Positions 17,833 through 27,310 of a stretch of 64,000 nt of DNA are shown here, one piece after another. Position numbers and translations under genes: made by a program. The DNA comes from Candidatus Omnitrophota bacterium (lineage in GTDB: Bacteria > Hinthialibacterota > Hinthialibacteria > Hinthialibacterales > JAKPRU01), in contig JAKQSI010000065.1 of NCBI GenBank assembly GCA_029570205.1, forward strand, positions 135,489 to 199,488. Reading direction: 5' to 3'. Each line of letters opens with the position of its first letter. Positions within the stretch are counted from its first letter, which is position 1. The notes beneath the pieces were generated by a model, which saw only the letters and a program-made list of their open reading frames with translations, did no database searches and was not told where the DNA came from.

Positions 17833-17946
17833 CAGAAGAGGCAAGGACCGGGGGGAGGTGAGACACTTATACTGATACTCGCGGAGAATTATTGTGTGAA
17901 TCGGCTTTCCGCGGCCAAGACGCTAACGCACAAGGTGAAGAAGGCT

Positions 17947-18390
17947 ATGCCAAGTTATGTTATTGTAGAAAAGTGCGATGGCTGCAAAGGACTGGACAAG
18001 ACAGCGTGTCGGCATATCTGTCCGAACGACCTGATGGTTCTGGACAAGTCCTGTATGAAGGCTTACAACAGTGAGCCGGAGATGTGCTGGGAATGCTACA
18101 ATTGCGTGAAGATGTGTCCGAAGCGGGCGATCGAAGTCCGGGGGTATGCGGATTTTGTCCCGATGGGCGCCGTGGTGACCCCGATGCGGAACGCAGATTC
18201 CATTTTATGGACCGTGAAGTTCCGCAACGGCCACGTGAAGCGGTTCAAGTTCCCGACCCGCACAACAGCGGAAGGTTCTGCGGTTCCGGACGGCGGATTC
18301 GGTACAGGATCGGATGATCTCACAAGCGCAACGCTTTTCACCGAACCGGCTTCGTTGGGACTCGCGGAAGTTGAGACGGTCAAAAGATAA
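17947..18390 (+). CDS. aprB: adenylylsulfate reductase subunit beta
   Basis: A 147-residue iron-sulfur protein starting at ATG 17947 (MPSYVIVEKCDGC is the usual AprB start). Cys10, 13, 21, 25 and Cys47, 50, 53, 57 form two 4Fe-4S motifs. Downstream is the tail region with VKFRNGHVKRFKFPTRTT that wraps around AprA. AprAB interconverts adenosine-5'-phosphosulfate with sulfite and AMP in the cytoplasm, in sulfate reduction or, reversed, sulfur oxidation. It is 12 bases ahead of aprA, with AAGGAGG between. No sat, qmo, aprM or dsr gene is seen here. Confidence 0.93.
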   Translation: MPSYVIVEKCDGCKGLDKTACRHICPNDLMVLDKSCMKAYNSEPEMCWECYNCVKMCPKRAIEVRGYADFVPMGAVVTPMRNADSILWTVKFRNGHVKRFKFPTRTTAEGSAVPDGGFGTGSDDLTSATLFTEPASLGLAEVETVKR

Positions 18391-18402
18391 GGAGGCGGTA
18401 CT

Positions 18403-20277
18403 GTGGTCGATTTCGAAACCGTAGAAGTTACGACCGATCTGTTGATCGTCGGTGGGGGTATGTCTGCCTGTGGCGCCGCCGTGGAGGCGGCGTATTGGGC
18501 GAAGAAGAACGGCCTGAAAGTAACTCTGGTAGACAAAGCCGTGATGGAGCGCAGCGGCGCGGTGGCTATGGGGTTATCTGCAATCAATCAATACATCGGA
18601 CTGCGGGATGGGCAAAACACGGTCTGGGATTATGTCGATTACGTCCGGAAGGATCTGATGGGCATTACTCGTGAGGACCTTGTGTTTAATGTTGCGCGTC
18701 ACGTGGATTCATCGGTTCATCTATTCGAAAAATGGGGCCTTCCGATCTGGAAAGATAAAAAGGGAGCCTATATTCACGAGGGACGATGGCAGCTGATGAT
18801 TAACGGTGAATCCTACAAGGTTATTGTAGCGGAAGCGGCCAGGAATGCTCTCGGAATGGAGAATATTTACGAGAGAGTATTCATTGTAGAACCGTTAATG
18901 GATGGGGATCGGGTCGCCGGCGCTGTCGGATTCAGTGTGCGCGAGAACAAGTTTTACGTATTCAAGGCCAAGGCGGTTGTTGTTGCCATGGGCGGGGCGG
19001 TGCATATCTTCCGGCCCCGGTCTATCGGTGAGGGCCTTGGACGAGCCTGGTATCCGCCGTGGAATTCCGGTTCCAGCGCCTATTTCACCCTGAGGGCGGG
19101 CGCAGAAATGACATGCCAGGAAGTGCGTTTTATCCCGGTCCGATTCAAAGACGGCTACGGACCGGTCGGAGCGTGGTTTCTTTTGTTCAAATCGCGTGCA
19201 ACCAACGCCATGGGCGGCGACTACGTGGTCGAACACAAGGACGAGCTCCAAAAGTGGGGTGAGTACGGCAGCGTCAAGCCGATTCCGACTAACCTTCGCA
19301 ACCGGCTTGTCATGCTGGATGTCATGCAAGGTAAAGGTCCCATCTCCATGAGAACGGAGGAGGCCATCCGGAGGATTGCTTCGGCGGAATCGGACGGGAG
19401 AGCCGCGCAGAAGAAGTGGAAGGCTCTCGAATCCGAAGCCTGGGAGGATTTCCTGGACATGACGATTTCCCAGGCGATTTTGTGGGCCGCTACCAATGTA
19501 CAGCCCGAAGAGAAATCGTCGGAAATCGCTGCCGCGGAACCGTACTTTATCGGCTCACACTCCGGCGCCTCCGGAGCCTGGGTCAGCGGCCCAGAAGACG
19601 TTGCTCCCCCGGAATACCGGTGGGGTTATGTCAACATGGCTACCGTCAAGGGGATTTTCTGTGCGGGCGATGCCTCCGGCGCATCCAGCCACAAGTTCTC
19701 CTCCGGCTCTCATGCTGAAGGAAGAATTGCAGGGAAGTCTGCCGTTCGCTACATTGTAGAGAATCCACAGCAGCCGAAAGTCGATATGGCGCAGGTCGCG
19801 AAGCTGAAGGAGACGATATTGAGGCCCCTCGATCTCTACCGGCAACATAAGAACGAAACCAGCGATCCGGAAATCAACCCGAATTATATTAAACCCAAAA
19901 TGTTCATGTTCCGTCTCCAGAAGATCATGGACGAATATGCGGGCGGTGTCTCGGCGCAGTTCACCACAAACGAGTCCCTGCTCAAGAAAGGATTGGAACT
20001 TCTGGCATATCTCAAAGAAGACTCGGCTAATCTTGCGGCAAAAGACCTGCACGAGCTCCTGCGTTGCTGGGAGAATGTGCAGCGCATGTGGCAGGCGGAG
20101 GCTCATGTACGTGCTGTCCTGTTCCGCGAAGAAACCCGTTGGCCGGGATATTATTTCCGTGCGGATAAACCGGCGCTCGATGAGCAGAATTGGAAATGTT
20201 TCGTAAACTGCCGCGTCGATCCGAACACCGGGGAGTGGGAGATGATGAAACGGGATATCATCCCCCTCAGGTTGTAA
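18403..20277 (+). CDS. aprA: adenylylsulfate reductase subunit alpha
   Basis: A 624-residue FAD flavoprotein starting with GTG at 18403 after AAGGAGG. The N-terminal FAD motif is LLIVGGGMSACGAAVEAAYWA, then VDKAVMERSGAVAMGLSAIN. The diagnostic AprA block GGAVHIFRPRSIGEGLGRAWYPPWNSGS is complete, as is MTCQEVRFIPVRFKDGYGPVGAW; both help form the APS site. FCAGDASGASSHKFSSGSHAEGRIAGKSA closes the FAD domain and a helical C-terminal domain follows. All family blocks look intact, so the enzyme should be functional. With aprB it forms a two-gene operon ended by a hairpin at 20339. Confidence 0.95.
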   Translation: MVDFETVEVTTDLLIVGGGMSACGAAVEAAYWAKKNGLKVTLVDKAVMERSGAVAMGLSAINQYIGLRDGQNTVWDYVDYVRKDLMGITREDLVFNVARHVDSSVHLFEKWGLPIWKDKKGAYIHEGRWQLMINGESYKVIVAEAARNALGMENIYERVFIVEPLMDGDRVAGAVGFSVRENKFYVFKAKAVVVAMGGAVHIFRPRSIGEGLGRAWYPPWNSGSSAYFTLRAGAEMTCQEVRFIPVRFKDGYGPVGAWFLLFKSRATNAMGGDYVVEHKDELQKWGEYGSVKPIPTNLRNRLVMLDVMQGKGPISMRTEEAIRRIASAESDGRAAQKKWKALESEAWEDFLDMTISQAILWAATNVQPEEKSSEIAAAEPYFIGSHSGASGAWVSGPEDVAPPEYRWGYVNMATVKGIFCAGDASGASSHKFSSGSHAEGRIAGKSAVRYIVENPQQPKVDMAQVAKLKETILRPLDLYRQHKNETSDPEINPNYIKPKMFMFRLQKIMDEYAGGVSAQFTTNESLLKKGLELLAYLKEDSANLAAKDLHELLRCWENVQRMWQAEAHVRAVLFREETRWPGYYFRADKPALDEQNWKCFVNCRVDPNTGEWEMMKRDIIPLRL

Positions 20278-21126: not shown

Positions 21127-22437
21127 GTGGACGTCACATCAGAACGGCAAGCAAGTCTGCGGGAATTGGCGCGACGGTTGGGGGTGCCCCATGTCGATCT
21201 CGGTTTGTTGCATGAGGCTCTCTGCCACAGCTCTTTCGCCAATGAGAATGCGAATTGCTCCACGTACGGCAACGAACGCCTGGAGTTTCTGGGAGATTCG
21301 GTTGTCGGCCTGGCAGTGACCGAAGCCCTCTACCTGGAATTCCCCGAAATGAGAGAAGGGGATCTCTCCAAGATCAAATCGATCATCGTATCCAAGCGCA
21401 TTCTTTCCGAACGAACGGAGGAACTGGGACTTGGTGACTATCTTCTGCTCGGCAAAGGAGAAGAGCAAACCGGAGGCCGACGTCGGTTTTCGATCCTGGG
21501 GAATCTTTTCGAGAGTGTGGTGGGCGCAATTTATCTGTCGGAAGGGATTGAAACGGCGAAGCAGTTTGTGCTGAATCAGGTCGGTGAGGAGCTTCACCGC
21601 GCCGCTGTCGGGGAAAGCATCATCGACTATAAATCCGACTTGCAGGAACGGACACAGAAGGAATTCGGAGTCCTCCCGATCTACCGTCTGGTGCATTCGA
21701 CCGGACCGGACCACGACCGCGAATTTGTTGTTCAGGTCTTGATTGGAGAGACCATCCTTTCTGAAGGGGCCGGAAAAAGCAAGAAAAAGGCCGAGAAGGC
21801 GGCAGCCCAAAACGCTTTGAAAAGGCTGGATTCCGATAGAACCAGGCCGGTTCCTGAACTTACGGAAGAGCCGACCTTTCGACAATCTCAAGAACCGGCC
21901 CCTGTCGGTATGCCGACAGTCCCCACGGAAACACCGCCACCGACGTGCCTGCCCCCAATTCATTTGTCCCAACCGAGAAGAGTCAGGCCGTTGACTGCCG
22001 TTCCCAGGGAAGGGCGGATTCTTGCTATCGACCTGGGAGAAAAGCGAATCGGCATTGCGCTCTCGGATGAACTTCGAACAATTGCTCAGCCCCTGGTCAC
22101 CATGAAGAGCAACCGCGCCTCTGCGCTCGTGAAAGATGTGACCGAGTTGATACGAAAGCATGAGGTTTCTGCGGTTGTGGTGGGGCTGCCGCGCACACTG
22201 GATGGGCAGGAGAGAGAGTCTGCCGCCGCGGCCCGCAAGATCGCCGACCGACTGCAAAAAAGCCTTTCCATGCCTGTGATTCTTTGGGATGAGCGTCTCT
22301 CTACAGTCGGTTCCGAGCGTCATCTGATCGAATCCGGTGTCCGTCGCAGGGACCGCCGGGATGTGATCGACCAGTGCGCCGCAGCATGGATTCTCGAAGG
22401 CTACCTGGAATATCTCCGGCAGAATGACATCCCGTGA
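21127..22437 (+). CDS. rnc-ruvX: fusion of ribonuclease III and RuvX/YqgF resolvase
   Basis: One uninterrupted 436-residue frame (GTG start). Residues about 5-155 are the RNase III domain with the catalytic motif NERLEFLGDS and the metal-binding glutamate in GNLFESVVGAIYL. Residues about 165-237 are a double-stranded-RNA-binding domain ending KSKKKAEKAAAQNALKRL. A Pro/Thr-rich linker (238-300) contains a copy of a palindromic repeat. Residues about 301-432 are RuvX (YqgF): ILAIDLGEKRIGIALSD, VVGLPRTLDG, LWDERLST and DVIDQCAAA with the acidic residues of the RNase H-like site. RNase III cuts dsRNA in rRNA and mRNA processing; RuvX is implicated in Holliday-junction resolution or 16S rRNA 5'-end maturation. 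Joining them suggests a shared rRNA-processing role. The stop overlaps the next start (GTGA). Confidence 0.9.
   Translation: MDVTSERQASLRELARRLGVPHVDLGLLHEALCHSSFANENANCSTYGNERLEFLGDSVVGLAVTEALYLEFPEMREGDLSKIKSIIVSKRILSERTEELGLGDYLLLGKGEEQTGGRRRFSILGNLFESVVGAIYLSEGIETAKQFVLNQVGEELHRAAVGESIIDYKSDLQERTQKEFGVLPIYRLVHSTGPDHDREFVVQVLIGETILSEGAGKSKKKAEKAAAQNALKRLDSDRTRPVPELTEEPTFRQSQEPAPVGMPTVPTETPPPTCLPPIHLSQPRRVRPLTAVPREGRILAIDLGEKRIGIALSDELRTIAQPLVTMKSNRASALVKDVTELIRKHEVSAVVVGLPRTLDGQERESAAAARKIADRLQKSLSMPVILWDERLSTVGSERHLIESGVRRRDRRDVIDQCAAAWILEGYLEYLRQNDIP
21845..21900. repeat. palindromic dispersed repeat, copy B inside rnc-ruvX
   Basis: This copy begins GGCCGGTTCCTGAACTT and ends CTCAAGAACCGGCC, so its ends pair as inverted repeats. 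It encodes residues about 240-258 of the fusion protein (PVPELTEEPTFRQSQEP) exactly in the linker between the two enzymes. The counterpart is at 20496-20551. Confidence 0.7.
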
Positions 22438-24473
22438 ATGCTGAAACGGATCATGCACCCTCGCCGCAATCCTCTCCCAAGGGGAGAAGGGGCGATTTTT
22501 ATCGGCAACCGGCGCTGGTCCTTGTCCTGATCACCGCCGTTTTTGTTGGTGTGTATCATTCCTCGCCGGTTCTTGTTGTTGCCTGGCGACTGAGGGAGTT
22601 CCTCGCGGGTGTGATTCCATTTGTGATCGGTTGGCCTCTGGGGTGGTTGATCCTTCGTCGAGAAGAATCCTTGACGAAGACGGAGCGAATCATTTTATCT
22701 CTCGGACTCGGACACGGGATTCTATTCGGATTCACCTTTCTGTTGCTGACCCTGCGCTTATTCTACGCCGAGTTGATTCCGGTTCTGGTCGGCCTGTCAA
22801 TCCTGCTTACCTGGAAAATCTGGGTGGATCTTCTCCGCACCCTCTTTGCTGCCGGCGCTAAAAGTCACACAGAACTGCGGGAGAACAATCTCTGGATTTT
22901 TTTCCTGGTTCTCGCCGGGATTTTGGGGCTTGGGTGTTCCCTGCTCCCGCCGCTGAATTATGACGCCCTCGAATACCATTTGGCGGTTCCGGAGGTCTGG
23001 ATTCGACACCATGGCTGGGTGGCATTCCCGCTGAACATTTATGCCTGGTTTCCCATGAATGTGGAGATTCTCTATTCGTGGGCGCTCATCTTGGGAGAGA
23101 CTGCATCCGCCGTGGTGGTACATTTTCTTTTCGCAGTGGCCTGCACAGTAGGGATTCTTTGCATTGAGACCCGAAAAAGCGGGCTATTATCCTGTTGGCC
23201 GGCTGCGGTCCTGTTTGTGTCGAGCGGTCTCATTATTCGGCTCGCCATACAGGCGGATATCGACTTGGGTGTTTGTTTTTATGCCCTGCTCGCCCTGATG
23301 ATGTTTCTTCGCTGGACGGAGAGCGCACGGCCCTCGGCAGTCATTCTGTCATCGGTTTTTGTGGGACTTGCGCTCGGCTGCAAATATATCGCGGTCATTT
23401 CCGTTTGGATTCCCATGCTGGTTCTGGTCTTGCGATTCGGGCCGTCCGGGCCGCGCCTGCGGGGCTTCTTGTGGATGGCATTCCTGCCGCTGTGTCTCCT
23501 TGCGCCCTGGCTGGTGAGAAATGTGTGCATGGTTGGCAATCCGGTGTTTCCCCTCCTGTATTCCTGGTTTGGTGGGGAGAATTGGACCGATGCTGCTGCC
23601 GCTTTCTTCCAGGCCGCGCATTCTCCCAAGGCTTTGGGACTATCAGGGCATTTGATCGAGCTGATTCGAGCGCCGCTGGATTTGACCATCCTGAATCTCA
23701 CGGTTTTCTCTCCCCTGATATTGGCCGGTGCAGCGTTGGCTTTGATCCGTCGGAACGGCAATCGTGACCTGTGTATTCTGTGGATTTATTCCCTGGTGGC
23801 TTTCGCATTCTGGTTTGTTTTTACACAGCGCAATCATCGATTTCTTGTGACCGTCGCCCCGCCGCTGGCTCTGATTGCTGCCTGGGGTATCGCACCCGAA
23901 GTTCGAATCCAGAAAACCGTCCGATGGGCCGTGGTTTTCGTGGCATCCTATTCTCTTTACCTGCTGTTGATGACTCTCTCCCTGGATGGAGGTCTGAAAT
24001 ATCTTGTGCTGGGGGAAACGGAGGACCAGTATTACGAGCGGCTTCTGCCGCATACGCGAGCCATTCGTTTCCTGAACGAGACGGCGCAACAGCGGCCTGT
24101 GCGGACAATGTTTGTCGGAGAGGCACAGGCGTACGGGCTACGCTGTGAGGCCATTGTGCCCGTTGTGTTCAATGTGCATCCCTGGATTCCACATGATCCG
24201 TTCGGCAACGCCATCTCGCAGACAACCGAACAGGCGTTGCACCGACTTTGGGAACTGGGGGTGACGCATATTCTGTTCAATCAGTCGGAAATGAATCGTC
24301 TCATGCGGGGATTTCTGCCACTGGGCTGGCCGGATGGCCGCGAGCTGGCACGACTGGTTCCTCTGATGGAAAAAGATTTTCTTAAACAGGTTTTCGAGAC
24401 CGAAAACGGGATCATTCGGGTTCTGGAGGTTCCGCCACCTCCAGCGGACAAGAAAGCCGATGCGCCTTCCTGA
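22434..24473 (+). CDS. GT39-like multi-span glycosyltransferase
   Basis: A 679-residue integral membrane protein with about 11-12 hydrophobic segments. A cytoplasm-to-periplasm loop carries NYDALEYHLAVPE (175-187), the acidic motif expected for the GT39/PMT/ArnT superfamily that uses lipid-phosphate sugar donors on the outer face of the inner membrane. A soluble C-terminal part (from about 540) follows. It begins with GTG overlapping the rnc-ruvX stop, so it is translationally coupled. Its first 20 residues (PSPQSSPKGRRG) are encoded by a GC-rich intergenic-type repeat. Acceptor and donor are unknown. Confidence 0.75.
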   Translation: MNAETDHAPSPQSSPKGRRGDFYRQPALVLVLITAVFVGVYHSSPVLVVAWRLREFLAGVIPFVIGWPLGWLILRREESLTKTERIILSLGLGHGILFGFTFLLLTLRLFYAELIPVLVGLSILLTWKIWVDLLRTLFAAGAKSHTELRENNLWIFFLVLAGILGLGCSLLPPLNYDALEYHLAVPEVWIRHHGWVAFPLNIYAWFPMNVEILYSWALILGETASAVVVHFLFAVACTVGILCIETRKSGLLSCWPAAVLFVSSGLIIRLAIQADIDLGVCFYALLALMMFLRWTESARPSAVILSSVFVGLALGCKYIAVISVWIPMLVLVLRFGPSGPRLRGFLWMAFLPLCLLAPWLVRNVCMVGNPVFPLLYSWFGGENWTDAAAAFFQAAHSPKALGLSGHLIELIRAPLDLTILNLTVFSPLILAGAALALIRRNGNRDLCILWIYSLVAFAFWFVFTQRNHRFLVTVAPPLALIAAWGIAPEVRIQKTVRWAVVFVASYSLYLLLMTLSLDGGLKYLVLGETEDQYYERLLPHTRAIRFLNETAQQRPVRTMFVGEAQAYGLRCEAIVPVVFNVHPWIPHDPFGNAISQTTEQALHRLWELGVTHILFNQSEMNRLMRGFLPLGWPDGRELARLVPLMEKDFLKQVFETENGIIRVLEVPPPPADKKADAPS

Positions 24474-24514
24474 CAGCGATTTAAGAAGGCGGAGTGAAAA
24501 ATAAATCGGGAGAA

Positions 24515-24587
24515 TGGAGCACATGGGATTCGAACCCACGACCTCTGCCTTGCGAAAGCAGCGCTCTCCCAGCTGAGCTAGTGCCCC
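24515..24587 (-). tRNA. tRNA-Ala (anticodon CGC)
   Basis: On the minus strand a full cloverleaf can be folded. The acceptor arm GGGGCAC pairs with GTGCTCC and includes the G3:U70 wobble that defines alanine tRNA. The D arm has AGCTCAGCTGGGAGAGC, the anticodon arm is CTGCT-TTCGCAA-GGCAG with anticodon CGC, and the T arm has GGTTCGAATCC. Discriminator A73 is at 24515; CCA is not encoded. A T-rich run follows the 3' end. Confidence 0.95.
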
Positions 24588-24640
24588 GGAAAAATGGAAC
24601 ATGCGGTTCAGGAACGAGGCAAGTTCCGCATTCCACATAC

Positions 24641-24668
24641 AACATACCGCGCCGCCTTTTCTTGTCAA
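24641..24668 (-). promoter_or_regulatory. candidate sigma70 promoter for tRNA-Ala
   Basis: On the minus strand TTGACA (24663-24668) is 16 bases from TATGTT (24641-24646), about 54 bases upstream of the tRNA 5' end. Confidence 0.45.
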
Positions 24669-24841
24669 TCCAGGCTTGGAAAACGGCTTTTGGCCTTGGG
24701 CCGAAAGACTTCCTGAATTTCAAAGAACTCATCCCCGAACCGCAGAGAATAGCTGGCCTTCAAACGACGGCACAGGTTTACTACAGTCTCGAAGGTATGT
24801 TTTCACAAAGTTCAGTTTTAACATCCTTTTTGAATTCACGC

Positions 24842-27310
24842 ATGGCGAACGCGAGATTTTTTCTTGTTATCGGCTTCCTCGTTCCTTTCTCCACGACTGT
24901 CGTGTGGGGCGCGGAGATCCTTTTCGAGGAGGGTCCCAGCCGGATTGTCGGCGGCGATTGGGCCGCGCGCATGGCCCGGCAGATTTCTGGTGAACCGCGA
25001 CCGACCGACATTTCCGACACGCTGATTCGGGAAATGATCTCTGCCGCCACTCTCGACTTTCTTTTGCCCCACACCGGCAGTCTTGCCCAGGCAATCCGGC
25101 GGTATGGCTGGGCGCAGTTCGAACAGGAACCCGAACAGGTTCCCACGGCGCAGAAAGTCCGTTTCTTTGTCGATTCCGCGACTCCCTCGGTTCTATGCCT
25201 GGAGCATCCGGGCAATACTAATGTTGTCGACATCCGGGCAACGGCGGATATTCGGAGCGGGAAGGTTCAAGTGGAACGATTCCCGATCGTCGGTAACGAA
25301 GACCGGACAGTCTATGCGAGTTTTCTCTCTGTTGAGAATATGGTCCTGTACCAGGAGCATTTTCAACGCCGGTTCTTTGAGGAAATGCTGGATTTGAACC
25401 GGCCCGGCCTGGAACGTGTCCGCGATGCATACCGCGCAAATAAGAAAACCCTTGCGGTCTACGAACTCTCCGAGTACTTTCGGAATAAAACTACCCCGGC
25501 GGCGCTCATCCGAAAACCCACCGCCACTCCCCAGTCGGCTACAACGGAAACCGCCGAGGCGATTTGCCGCCATGAATTCAATATCCAGGGAACTTTGTAT
25601 CAATTTGGAGCGCAAATTGACTGGTCCTGTTATCATACCGTACCGGCAGAATGGCTCTGGTCTTTAAATAACTTGACACACCTGATTGTATTACTGAACG
25701 GCTACCTGGACACCTCGAATGAAAAATATGCGGCCGAGTTTGTTGCTCAGATTACGGATTGGATTATCCGGAATCCCGCTCCTCCGTACACATTAACGCG
25801 AGTAGCCGCCTGGCGGAACCTGGAGGCGGGGAATCGCGGTGTCAATGCGCTTCCGATCACCTTCTATGGATTCCTGTGTTCCGATGCGTTTACACCTCAA
25901 GTTATCCAGCTGATGCTCGGATCGATTTGGAGCCATGGGGACTATATCCTGAAATATCCCGCCGGATGGCGCCGTCCCAGCAACTGGAGCGTAGTCGATT
26001 CCACGGGCCTTGCGGCAATAGCCGTGTATTTCCCCGAATTCCGCGACGCGGAACAGTGGAAACGGGCCGGGTACGAACGTCTGGCGAAACAATTGCAAAT
26101 GCAGGTTTACCCCGATGGAGCGCAGTGGGAACTCGCTCCCTCGTACCATCTCTATTGCCTTGACCGATTTCACCGTGCCTATGATCTGGCCCTCGAAACC
26201 GGCGTGCCGATTCCGGGCGATTTCGGTAAACGTCTCCAGTCCATGTACGACTACCTGATGTGGATCTGCAAACCCGACGGCACGGTCCCGGCTTTCAGCG
26301 ACTCCACAAGCCCGTCTGTTCTAGCCGTACTCCAGCAAGGCGCGGAGCGATTCAATCGTCCGGATTTCCGATATGTCGCCACAAGCGGCAAGGATGGGAC
26401 ACCTCCCGCGGAAACGTCGCACTATCTACCGTATGCCGGAAATGCCGTCATGCGAAGCGGATGGGATGAAGAGGCCCTGTACCTTTGCTTCGATGGCGGC
26501 CCTCTCGGCACAAATCACCAGCATGACGATAAACTCTCATTCGAACTCTCTGCTTACGGAAAGAATTTCATTATCGATCCTGGACCGTACCGGTATGTCT
26601 TGAACTCCTGGCGTTCGTATGCCGTCAGTACACAAGCTCACTCTACGGTTATGATCGACGGCTTCGGTCAGAACCGCCTTTATTTTTCCACAGAGCATGA
26701 GGCCCCACAAAATCCGACACCTGTCTGGCAATCGAATGATCTATTTGACTATACAATGGCAAGTTATGACTGCGGATACGGGGTAGATTCAATACCGGTC
26801 ATCCACAAACGTCATATCTTCTTCAAAAAGAATGAGTATTGGATTCTTCTGGATGAGATTGTGGGCGAAGGAAAGCGCCGCATGGAATCTCTATTTCATT
26901 TCGGCCCGGAATTCGAGCTGAAGAGACGGGATAATCTTTCCGTATATACACAACAGGAAACGGGACCGAATTGTGCGGTTATTCCGGCAAACACCCCCGG
27001 TCTGGAGGTTTCGATTATCAAAGGCAGGGAAACACCGTCCATACAGGGATGGTATCTTCCCAGCGAAGAAGGCCGGAAGCCCGCACCCGTGGCCTGTTAT
27101 GAGTTTACCGGAAATGTTCCTGCGGTTTTTGCTTACCTCTTGTTGCCGTATCGGGATTCGTTCCCCTCCGACTCTCGGCTCGTATTGGATCAAGACAATG
27201 ATGGTACTGCAACTCTGGCCGTCCACATTCCCCCAAAGCAGGTGGATCGTATTCAAATTGATCTCAAGAATCATTCCGCCGAATGGCCGACAACATCCGA
27301 CAGAGACTGA
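24842..27310 (+). CDS. heparinase II/III-family polysaccharide lyase, secreted
   Basis: About 822 residues from the ATG at 24842, which opens a signal peptide (hydrophobic run ending near VVWGAE). An upstream in-frame extension overlaps the tRNA and is not protein-like; an ATG at 24797 is an alternative. After an N-terminal domain, an alpha/alpha-toroid (roughly 180-480) contains WELAPSYHLYCLDRFHRAYDLA. The C-terminal beta-sheet domain starts with AGNAVMRSGWDEEALYLCFDGGPLGTNHQHDD, where the His residues fit the heparinase II/III metal and catalytic site. It cleaves uronic-acid-containing polysaccharides in the periplasm; the exact polymer is unknown. It is followed after 29 bases by an oligopeptide-type transporter. 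Confidence 0.85.
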   Translation: MANARFFLVIGFLVPFSTTVVWGAEILFEEGPSRIVGGDWAARMARQISGEPRPTDISDTLIREMISAATLDFLLPHTGSLAQAIRRYGWAQFEQEPEQVPTAQKVRFFVDSATPSVLCLEHPGNTNVVDIRATADIRSGKVQVERFPIVGNEDRTVYASFLSVENMVLYQEHFQRRFFEEMLDLNRPGLERVRDAYRANKKTLAVYELSEYFRNKTTPAALIRKPTATPQSATTETAEAICRHEFNIQGTLYQFGAQIDWSCYHTVPAEWLWSLNNLTHLIVLLNGYLDTSNEKYAAEFVAQITDWIIRNPAPPYTLTRVAAWRNLEAGNRGVNALPITFYGFLCSDAFTPQVIQLMLGSIWSHGDYILKYPAGWRRPSNWSVVDSTGLAAIAVYFPEFRDAEQWKRAGYERLAKQLQMQVYPDGAQWELAPSYHLYCLDRFHRAYDLALETGVPIPGDFGKRLQSMYDYLMWICKPDGTVPAFSDSTSPSVLAVLQQGAERFNRPDFRYVATSGKDGTPPAETSHYLPYAGNAVMRSGWDEEALYLCFDGGPLGTNHQHDDKLSFELSAYGKNFIIDPGPYRYVLNSWRSYAVSTQAHSTVMIDGFGQNRLYFSTEHEAPQNPTPVWQSNDLFDYTMASYDCGYGVDSIPVIHKRHIFFKKNEYWILLDEIVGEGKRRMESLFHFGPEFELKRRDNLSVYTQQETGPNCAVIPANTPGLEVSIIKGRETPSIQGWYLPSEEGRKPAPVACYEFTGNVPAVFAYLLLPYRDSFPSDSRLVLDQDNDGTATLAVHIPPKQVDRIQIDLKNHSAEWPTTSDRD

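Follow-up and report, generated by a model that had tools for sequence, protein, structure and literature searches.

A single gene of a Candidatus Omnitrophota bacterium, from a little-known uncultured genus, encodes RNase III and RuvX/YqgF, joined in frame, as one protein. RNase III and RuvX/YqgF are normally separate housekeeping enzymes; RuvX/YqgF is nearly universal in bacteria, and its role is disputed, the enzyme being regarded either as a Holliday-junction resolvase or as an rRNA nuclease. What is new is the domain architecture, both enzymes being already well known, and the fusion is relevant to the dispute over what RuvX does. We favour the reading that it is a bifunctional ribonuclease processing pre-16S rRNA, in which we infer that the two activities are coupled, and to which we give a probability of roughly 55%. 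The gene and its features, numbered within the window (the whole stretch of 64,000 nucleotides that was analysed), are as follows.

21127..22437, forward strand: the rnc-ruvX fusion gene, 436 amino acids, GTG start, TGA stop
21172..21582, forward strand: RNase III nuclease domain, residues 16-152
21283..21297, forward strand: E53 and D57 (E. coli E41 and D45), metal ligands, from alignment with solved RNase III structures and relatives
21502..21513, forward strand: Asn126 (E. coli D114, substituted) and Glu129 (E. coli E117, present), from the alignment
21628..21828, forward strand: double-stranded RNA-binding domain (dsRBD), residues 168-234, dsrm E=3e-17
21835..22008, forward strand: linker of 58 amino acids, 15 of them proline, residues 237-294, predicted to be disordered
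22015..22410, forward strand: RuvX/YqgF domain, RNase H-like, residues 297-428
22030..22371, forward strand: RuvX catalytic triad, D302 (22030-22032), E389 (22291-22293) and D415 (22369-22371), by motif match to D. radiodurans YqgF

Translation of the forward frame from 21127 to 22437 contains no internal stops. The product is matched in Pfam by Ribonucleas_3_3 (residues 27-152, E=1.6e-36), dsrm (168-234, 3e-17) and RuvX (297-428, 2.2e-42), and in NCBIfam by the equivalogs RNaseIII (TIGR02191; residues 16-234, 240.2 bits against a cut-off of 166.25) and RNAse_H_YqgF (TIGR00250; residues 299-428, 117.6 bits against a cut-off of 43.25, covering positions 1-130 of 130 of the profile). Judged by these profiles, the RNase III and RuvX domains are both essentially full length, and the original prediction of a single frame with complete RNase III, dsRBD and RuvX domains is borne out. 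An open frame on the opposite strand (21139-22458, reverse, 439 amino acids) spans the whole fusion, but the homology lies on the forward strand and we dismissed this frame as a by-product of the coding one.

Searches of PDB sequences with each half gave RNase III of T. maritima (6e-49) and YqgF of B. subtilis (1.2e-27) as the top matches. The N-terminal part resembles other bacterial RNases III (rnc, TIGR02191; T. maritima 1o0w, E. coli 7r97) in its full-length nuclease domain and dsRBD, in its signature (NERLEFLGDS, residues 49-58) and in the equivalents of E41, D45 and E117, but differs from them in the 200 extra residues of linker and RuvX and in having Asn at the position of D114. Likewise, the C-terminal part shares the full-length RNase H-like domain and the D/E/D triad of the putative pre-16S rRNA nuclease RuvX/YqgF (TIGR00250; B. 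subtilis 1vhx, M. tuberculosis 7ess, E. coli 1nu0), an enzyme which is normally a stand-alone protein of ~140 amino acids, whereas here it forms a domain of a longer chain. An AlphaFold2 model of the fusion has two confident modules, with very low confidence for residues 239-290, which is consistent with the linker being a flexible tether. In Foldseek, RNase III chains and RuvX chains match the model separately, and none of the 50 listed PDB rows is a chain carrying both.

In the genome as assembled (4.39 Mb, 93% complete), the sole rnc and the sole ruvX found are the fusion gene itself, and a whole-genome search found no additional stand-alone copy of either; the fusion replaces both stand-alone genes. 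It is common to the three species-level genomes of the genus, each from a separate assembly, and both congeners, G002 (JAKPRU010001108.1, 97% identity) and G001 (JAKPYU010000061.1, 89% identity), have it as the same single frame and keep its GTG start and TTTCGTGGACGT context. The linker of G001 is shorter by 8 codons, an in-frame gap of 24 nt. Differences between congeners fall mostly at third codon positions, through the linker too, and dN/dS among genus members is 0.06-0.09 in the nuclease domain, 0.04-0.09 in the dsRBD and 0.05-0.08 in RuvX, against 0.16-0.40 in the linker. Both halves are under strong purifying selection, and this, together with the in-frame linker gap, leads us to reject a frameshift artefact or a decaying gene. 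That assembly or sequencing error had joined two genes might be suspected of metagenome-assembled genomes such as these, but three separate assemblies with 3-16% protein/DNA divergence carry the join, the indel is in frame, third-position-biased differences run through the linker and a stand-alone copy of either gene was not found in the genome; the chance of such an artefact is negligible, and it is refuted as far as sequence can refute it. Between 21840 and 22010, where the original prediction had allowed for a stop or frameshift in other assemblies, neither occurs in the two congener genomes. It had also allowed for separate rnc and ruvX genes in all close relatives, which is not so, since both congeners are fused; the same domain order, searched for in related genomes as it had proposed, is present in these two, the genes of the sister family being separate.

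The original prediction also held that catalytic residues are visible, and this stands with one exception. In the RuvX half, the residues D302, E389 and D415 do not vary between the fusion and 11 stand-alone relatives from the phylum, and they correspond by motif to D22, E106 and D122 of D. radiodurans YqgF, mutation of which impaired or abolished RNase activity (PMC9601230). In the RNase III half, the alignment places equivalents of E. coli E38, E41, D45, E65 and E117, but among the four acidic residues E41, D45, D114 and E117 only three are present, D114 being replaced by Asn126. Asn at this position was also found in all six sampled genera of the sister family (f2), in G011 and in some other bacteria, and therefore the substitution predates the fusion. 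Of the four catalytic side chains, D114 alone makes no direct contact with Mg in the post-cleavage structure from E. coli (PMC9291653). On the other hand, the D114A mutant of E. coli RNase III is weak (PMC8708148), so the activity of the RNase III half could be lower. We take the substitution as a caution, not as proof of inactivity. As a separate observation, this conserved active-site acid appears to have been lost repeatedly within the phylum: the residue is Asn in families f1, f2 and f5, Ala in f4 (three genomes, G010, G012 and G013; loci L018, L019 and L015) and Asp in f3 (G009).

With a profile of the fusion searched against 386 genomes (258 families), end-to-end matches were obtained, among the matches listed, in the three members of the genus only, and the other listed RNase III matches all end near residue 240-300. 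If strongly diverged, a fusion could have been split or could fall outside the best matches listed. Among the ~150 RuvX matches listed, open frames of more than 350 amino acids outside the genus were limited to one of 690 residues (G243), which we rejected as a fusion because it is merely a stop-free GC-rich stretch. A partner domain was found in none of the long open frames extracted (14 RNase III matches, most of those in such frames, and 3 RuvX matches), nor at a masked RNase III locus (G053). A second genome sampling, centred elsewhere and overlapping the first, gave no fusion, and of the 80 loci retained by a pattern scan across 84,980 species genomes, those of the two congeners alone matched over both halves. 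The RNase III-RuvX architecture thus appears confined to one genus, among the genomes sampled and matches listed. We found no description of it in the open-access literature either, and the original statement that no standard description was known agrees with this and with its not being seen outside the genus.

Gene order in relatives, taken from a phylum sample of 14 genomes, suggests how the fusion may have arisen. The six genera of the sister family all have rnc and ruvX as distinct genes, encoded on one strand and separated by a radical-SAM gene (domains Radical_SAM and Radical_SAM_C). The fusion shares with this cluster of three genes the two outer ones, their order and their strand, but it lacks the radical-SAM gene and joins the outer two in frame. 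The other families of the class have the two genes on different contigs, so that their linkage arose in this order. The best match of the radical-SAM protein in the three fused genomes is only ~28% identical (E ~1e-12), and by this similarity the fused genus has paralogs but no ortholog of the intervening gene; in the linker DNA, no match to radical-SAM remnants rose above chance. Close outgroups are without the gene, which may have been lost from the fused genus or gained by insertion in the sister family. A plausible course would be that rnc and ruvX became linked in the ancestor of the order, that in the fused genus they stood directly adjacent with no radical-SAM gene between them, and that the rnc stop was then lost and the two frames joined.

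The main rival to the bifunctional reading is a passive operon fusion, in which a stop codon was lost between neighbours, the halves work independently and the covalent link has no function. The linkage of rnc and ruvX in the sister family favours it, as do the fast evolution of the linker, its composition of a neutral spacer and the restriction of the fusion to one genus. Against it, all three species-level genomes retain the fusion, with an in-frame length change and no re-separation, and the joined pair would happen to share a proposed pathway. We consider a functionless link rather unlikely, although the origin of the protein is accounted for just as well by a passive joining of linked genes, and a selective advantage cannot be claimed for a fusion found in one genus only.

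Two minor observations concern the same loci. The radical-SAM protein of the six sister-family genera (~340 amino acids, loci L126-L131) is uncharacterised and, by its gene neighbourhood, a candidate RNA- or ribosome-related enzyme. In G011, two places match RNase III (contigs C19 and C46), one of them in two pieces; this may reflect a duplicate or a contig-end copy.

The bifunctional reading draws on what is known of the two enzymes elsewhere. In E. coli, RNase III cuts the leader/trailer stem of the rRNA transcript, releasing the 17S pre-16S (PMC8708148), and YqgF shares RNase E/G cleavage sites and processes the pre-16S 5' end; YqgF of D. radiodurans is an RNase that cuts rRNA and has no Holliday-junction activity, and several bacteria cannot live without YqgF (PMC9601230). 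Since the 16S gene is absent from the assembly of the fusion genome, we used that of congener G002 instead. It is flanked by a complementary pair of 24 bp (-170..-147 and +151..+174), whose helix scores 17.6, whereas the best of 60 shuffles reached 15.2, and longer leader/trailer helices flank the 16S genes of G008, G010 and G011. The G002 helix is of the RNase III type and is the expected substrate of RNase III. A 16S gene binned with the other congener, G001 (L154, contig C403, with a tRNA-Ile in the trailer), was left unused: its identity to the G002 gene is only 87% and the bin has 8% contamination, so it probably belongs to a contaminant contig.

Extrapolating from both families, the RNase III half would dimerise and cut the long double-stranded stem that the 16S leader and trailer form in the primary rRNA transcript. 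Each dimer would carry two RuvX halves on tethers of ~58 residues, and these would act on the single-stranded precursor end so released, which is most likely the pre-16S 5' end. Being tethered, the second nuclease would be locally more concentrated where the first cut is made. A more specific form of this proposal, a dedicated two-step rRNA maturase in which one dimer physically couples stem cutting by its RNase III to trimming of the pre-16S end by its RuvX, we put forward only tentatively; if true, it would show that RuvX/YqgF acts directly downstream of RNase III. The link to 16S processing made in the original prediction is thus plausible from the work in E. coli and D. radiodurans and from the G002 helix, but it is weakened by the D114 substitution and by RNase E/G, an enzyme of unrelated fold that is encoded separately in the fusion genome and acts in 16S 5' processing at the same proposed step as E. 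coli YqgF. RNase E/G could perform the 5' processing by itself, and RuvX is not necessarily the sole 5' maturase.

Two other accounts of the protein were weighed. The RuvX half could be a Holliday-junction or DNA resolvase, the fusion then serving DNA repair or RNA-DNA hybrid metabolism, and resolvase activity has indeed been reported for RuvX of M. tuberculosis and H. pylori, but the D. radiodurans enzyme cut RNA and was inactive on Holliday junctions (PMC9601230). RuvC is encoded separately in the fusion genome, which leaves no need for a second Holliday-junction resolvase, RuvB is encoded within the window, and the partner of RuvX is a dsRNA nuclease with a dsRBD, all of which make a resolvase very improbable. 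Alternatively, an internal start in the linker or its proteolysis could yield separate RNase III and RuvX in the cell. One in-frame ATG of the linker (Met262) is conserved in the three genomes, and the predicted disorder would suit proteolysis, but by inspection there is no obvious Shine-Dalgarno sequence just upstream of this ATG, and a TTG that lies closer to the RuvX domain is not kept in G002, which has TTA; two products seem improbable. Returning to the bifunctional ribonuclease, a conserved RNase III-RuvX fusion in a genome that encodes RuvC amounts to gene-fusion evidence for an RNA-processing role of RuvX, and the single polypeptide offers a natural test of whether RNase III and RuvX act on the same RNA in a coupled maturation of 16S.

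Elsewhere in the window, aprB and aprA (adenylyl-sulfate reductase beta and alpha subunits; TIGR02060, TIGR02061) lie at 17896-20277 on the forward strand, ~0.85 kb upstream of the fusion, and hint at dissimilatory sulfur metabolism in this lineage. Downstream, a tRNA-Ala (CGC) at 24515-24587 on the reverse strand falls within the 5'-terminal part of the longest heparinase II/III frame (24494-27310, forward), and the true start of that gene is therefore probably further downstream.
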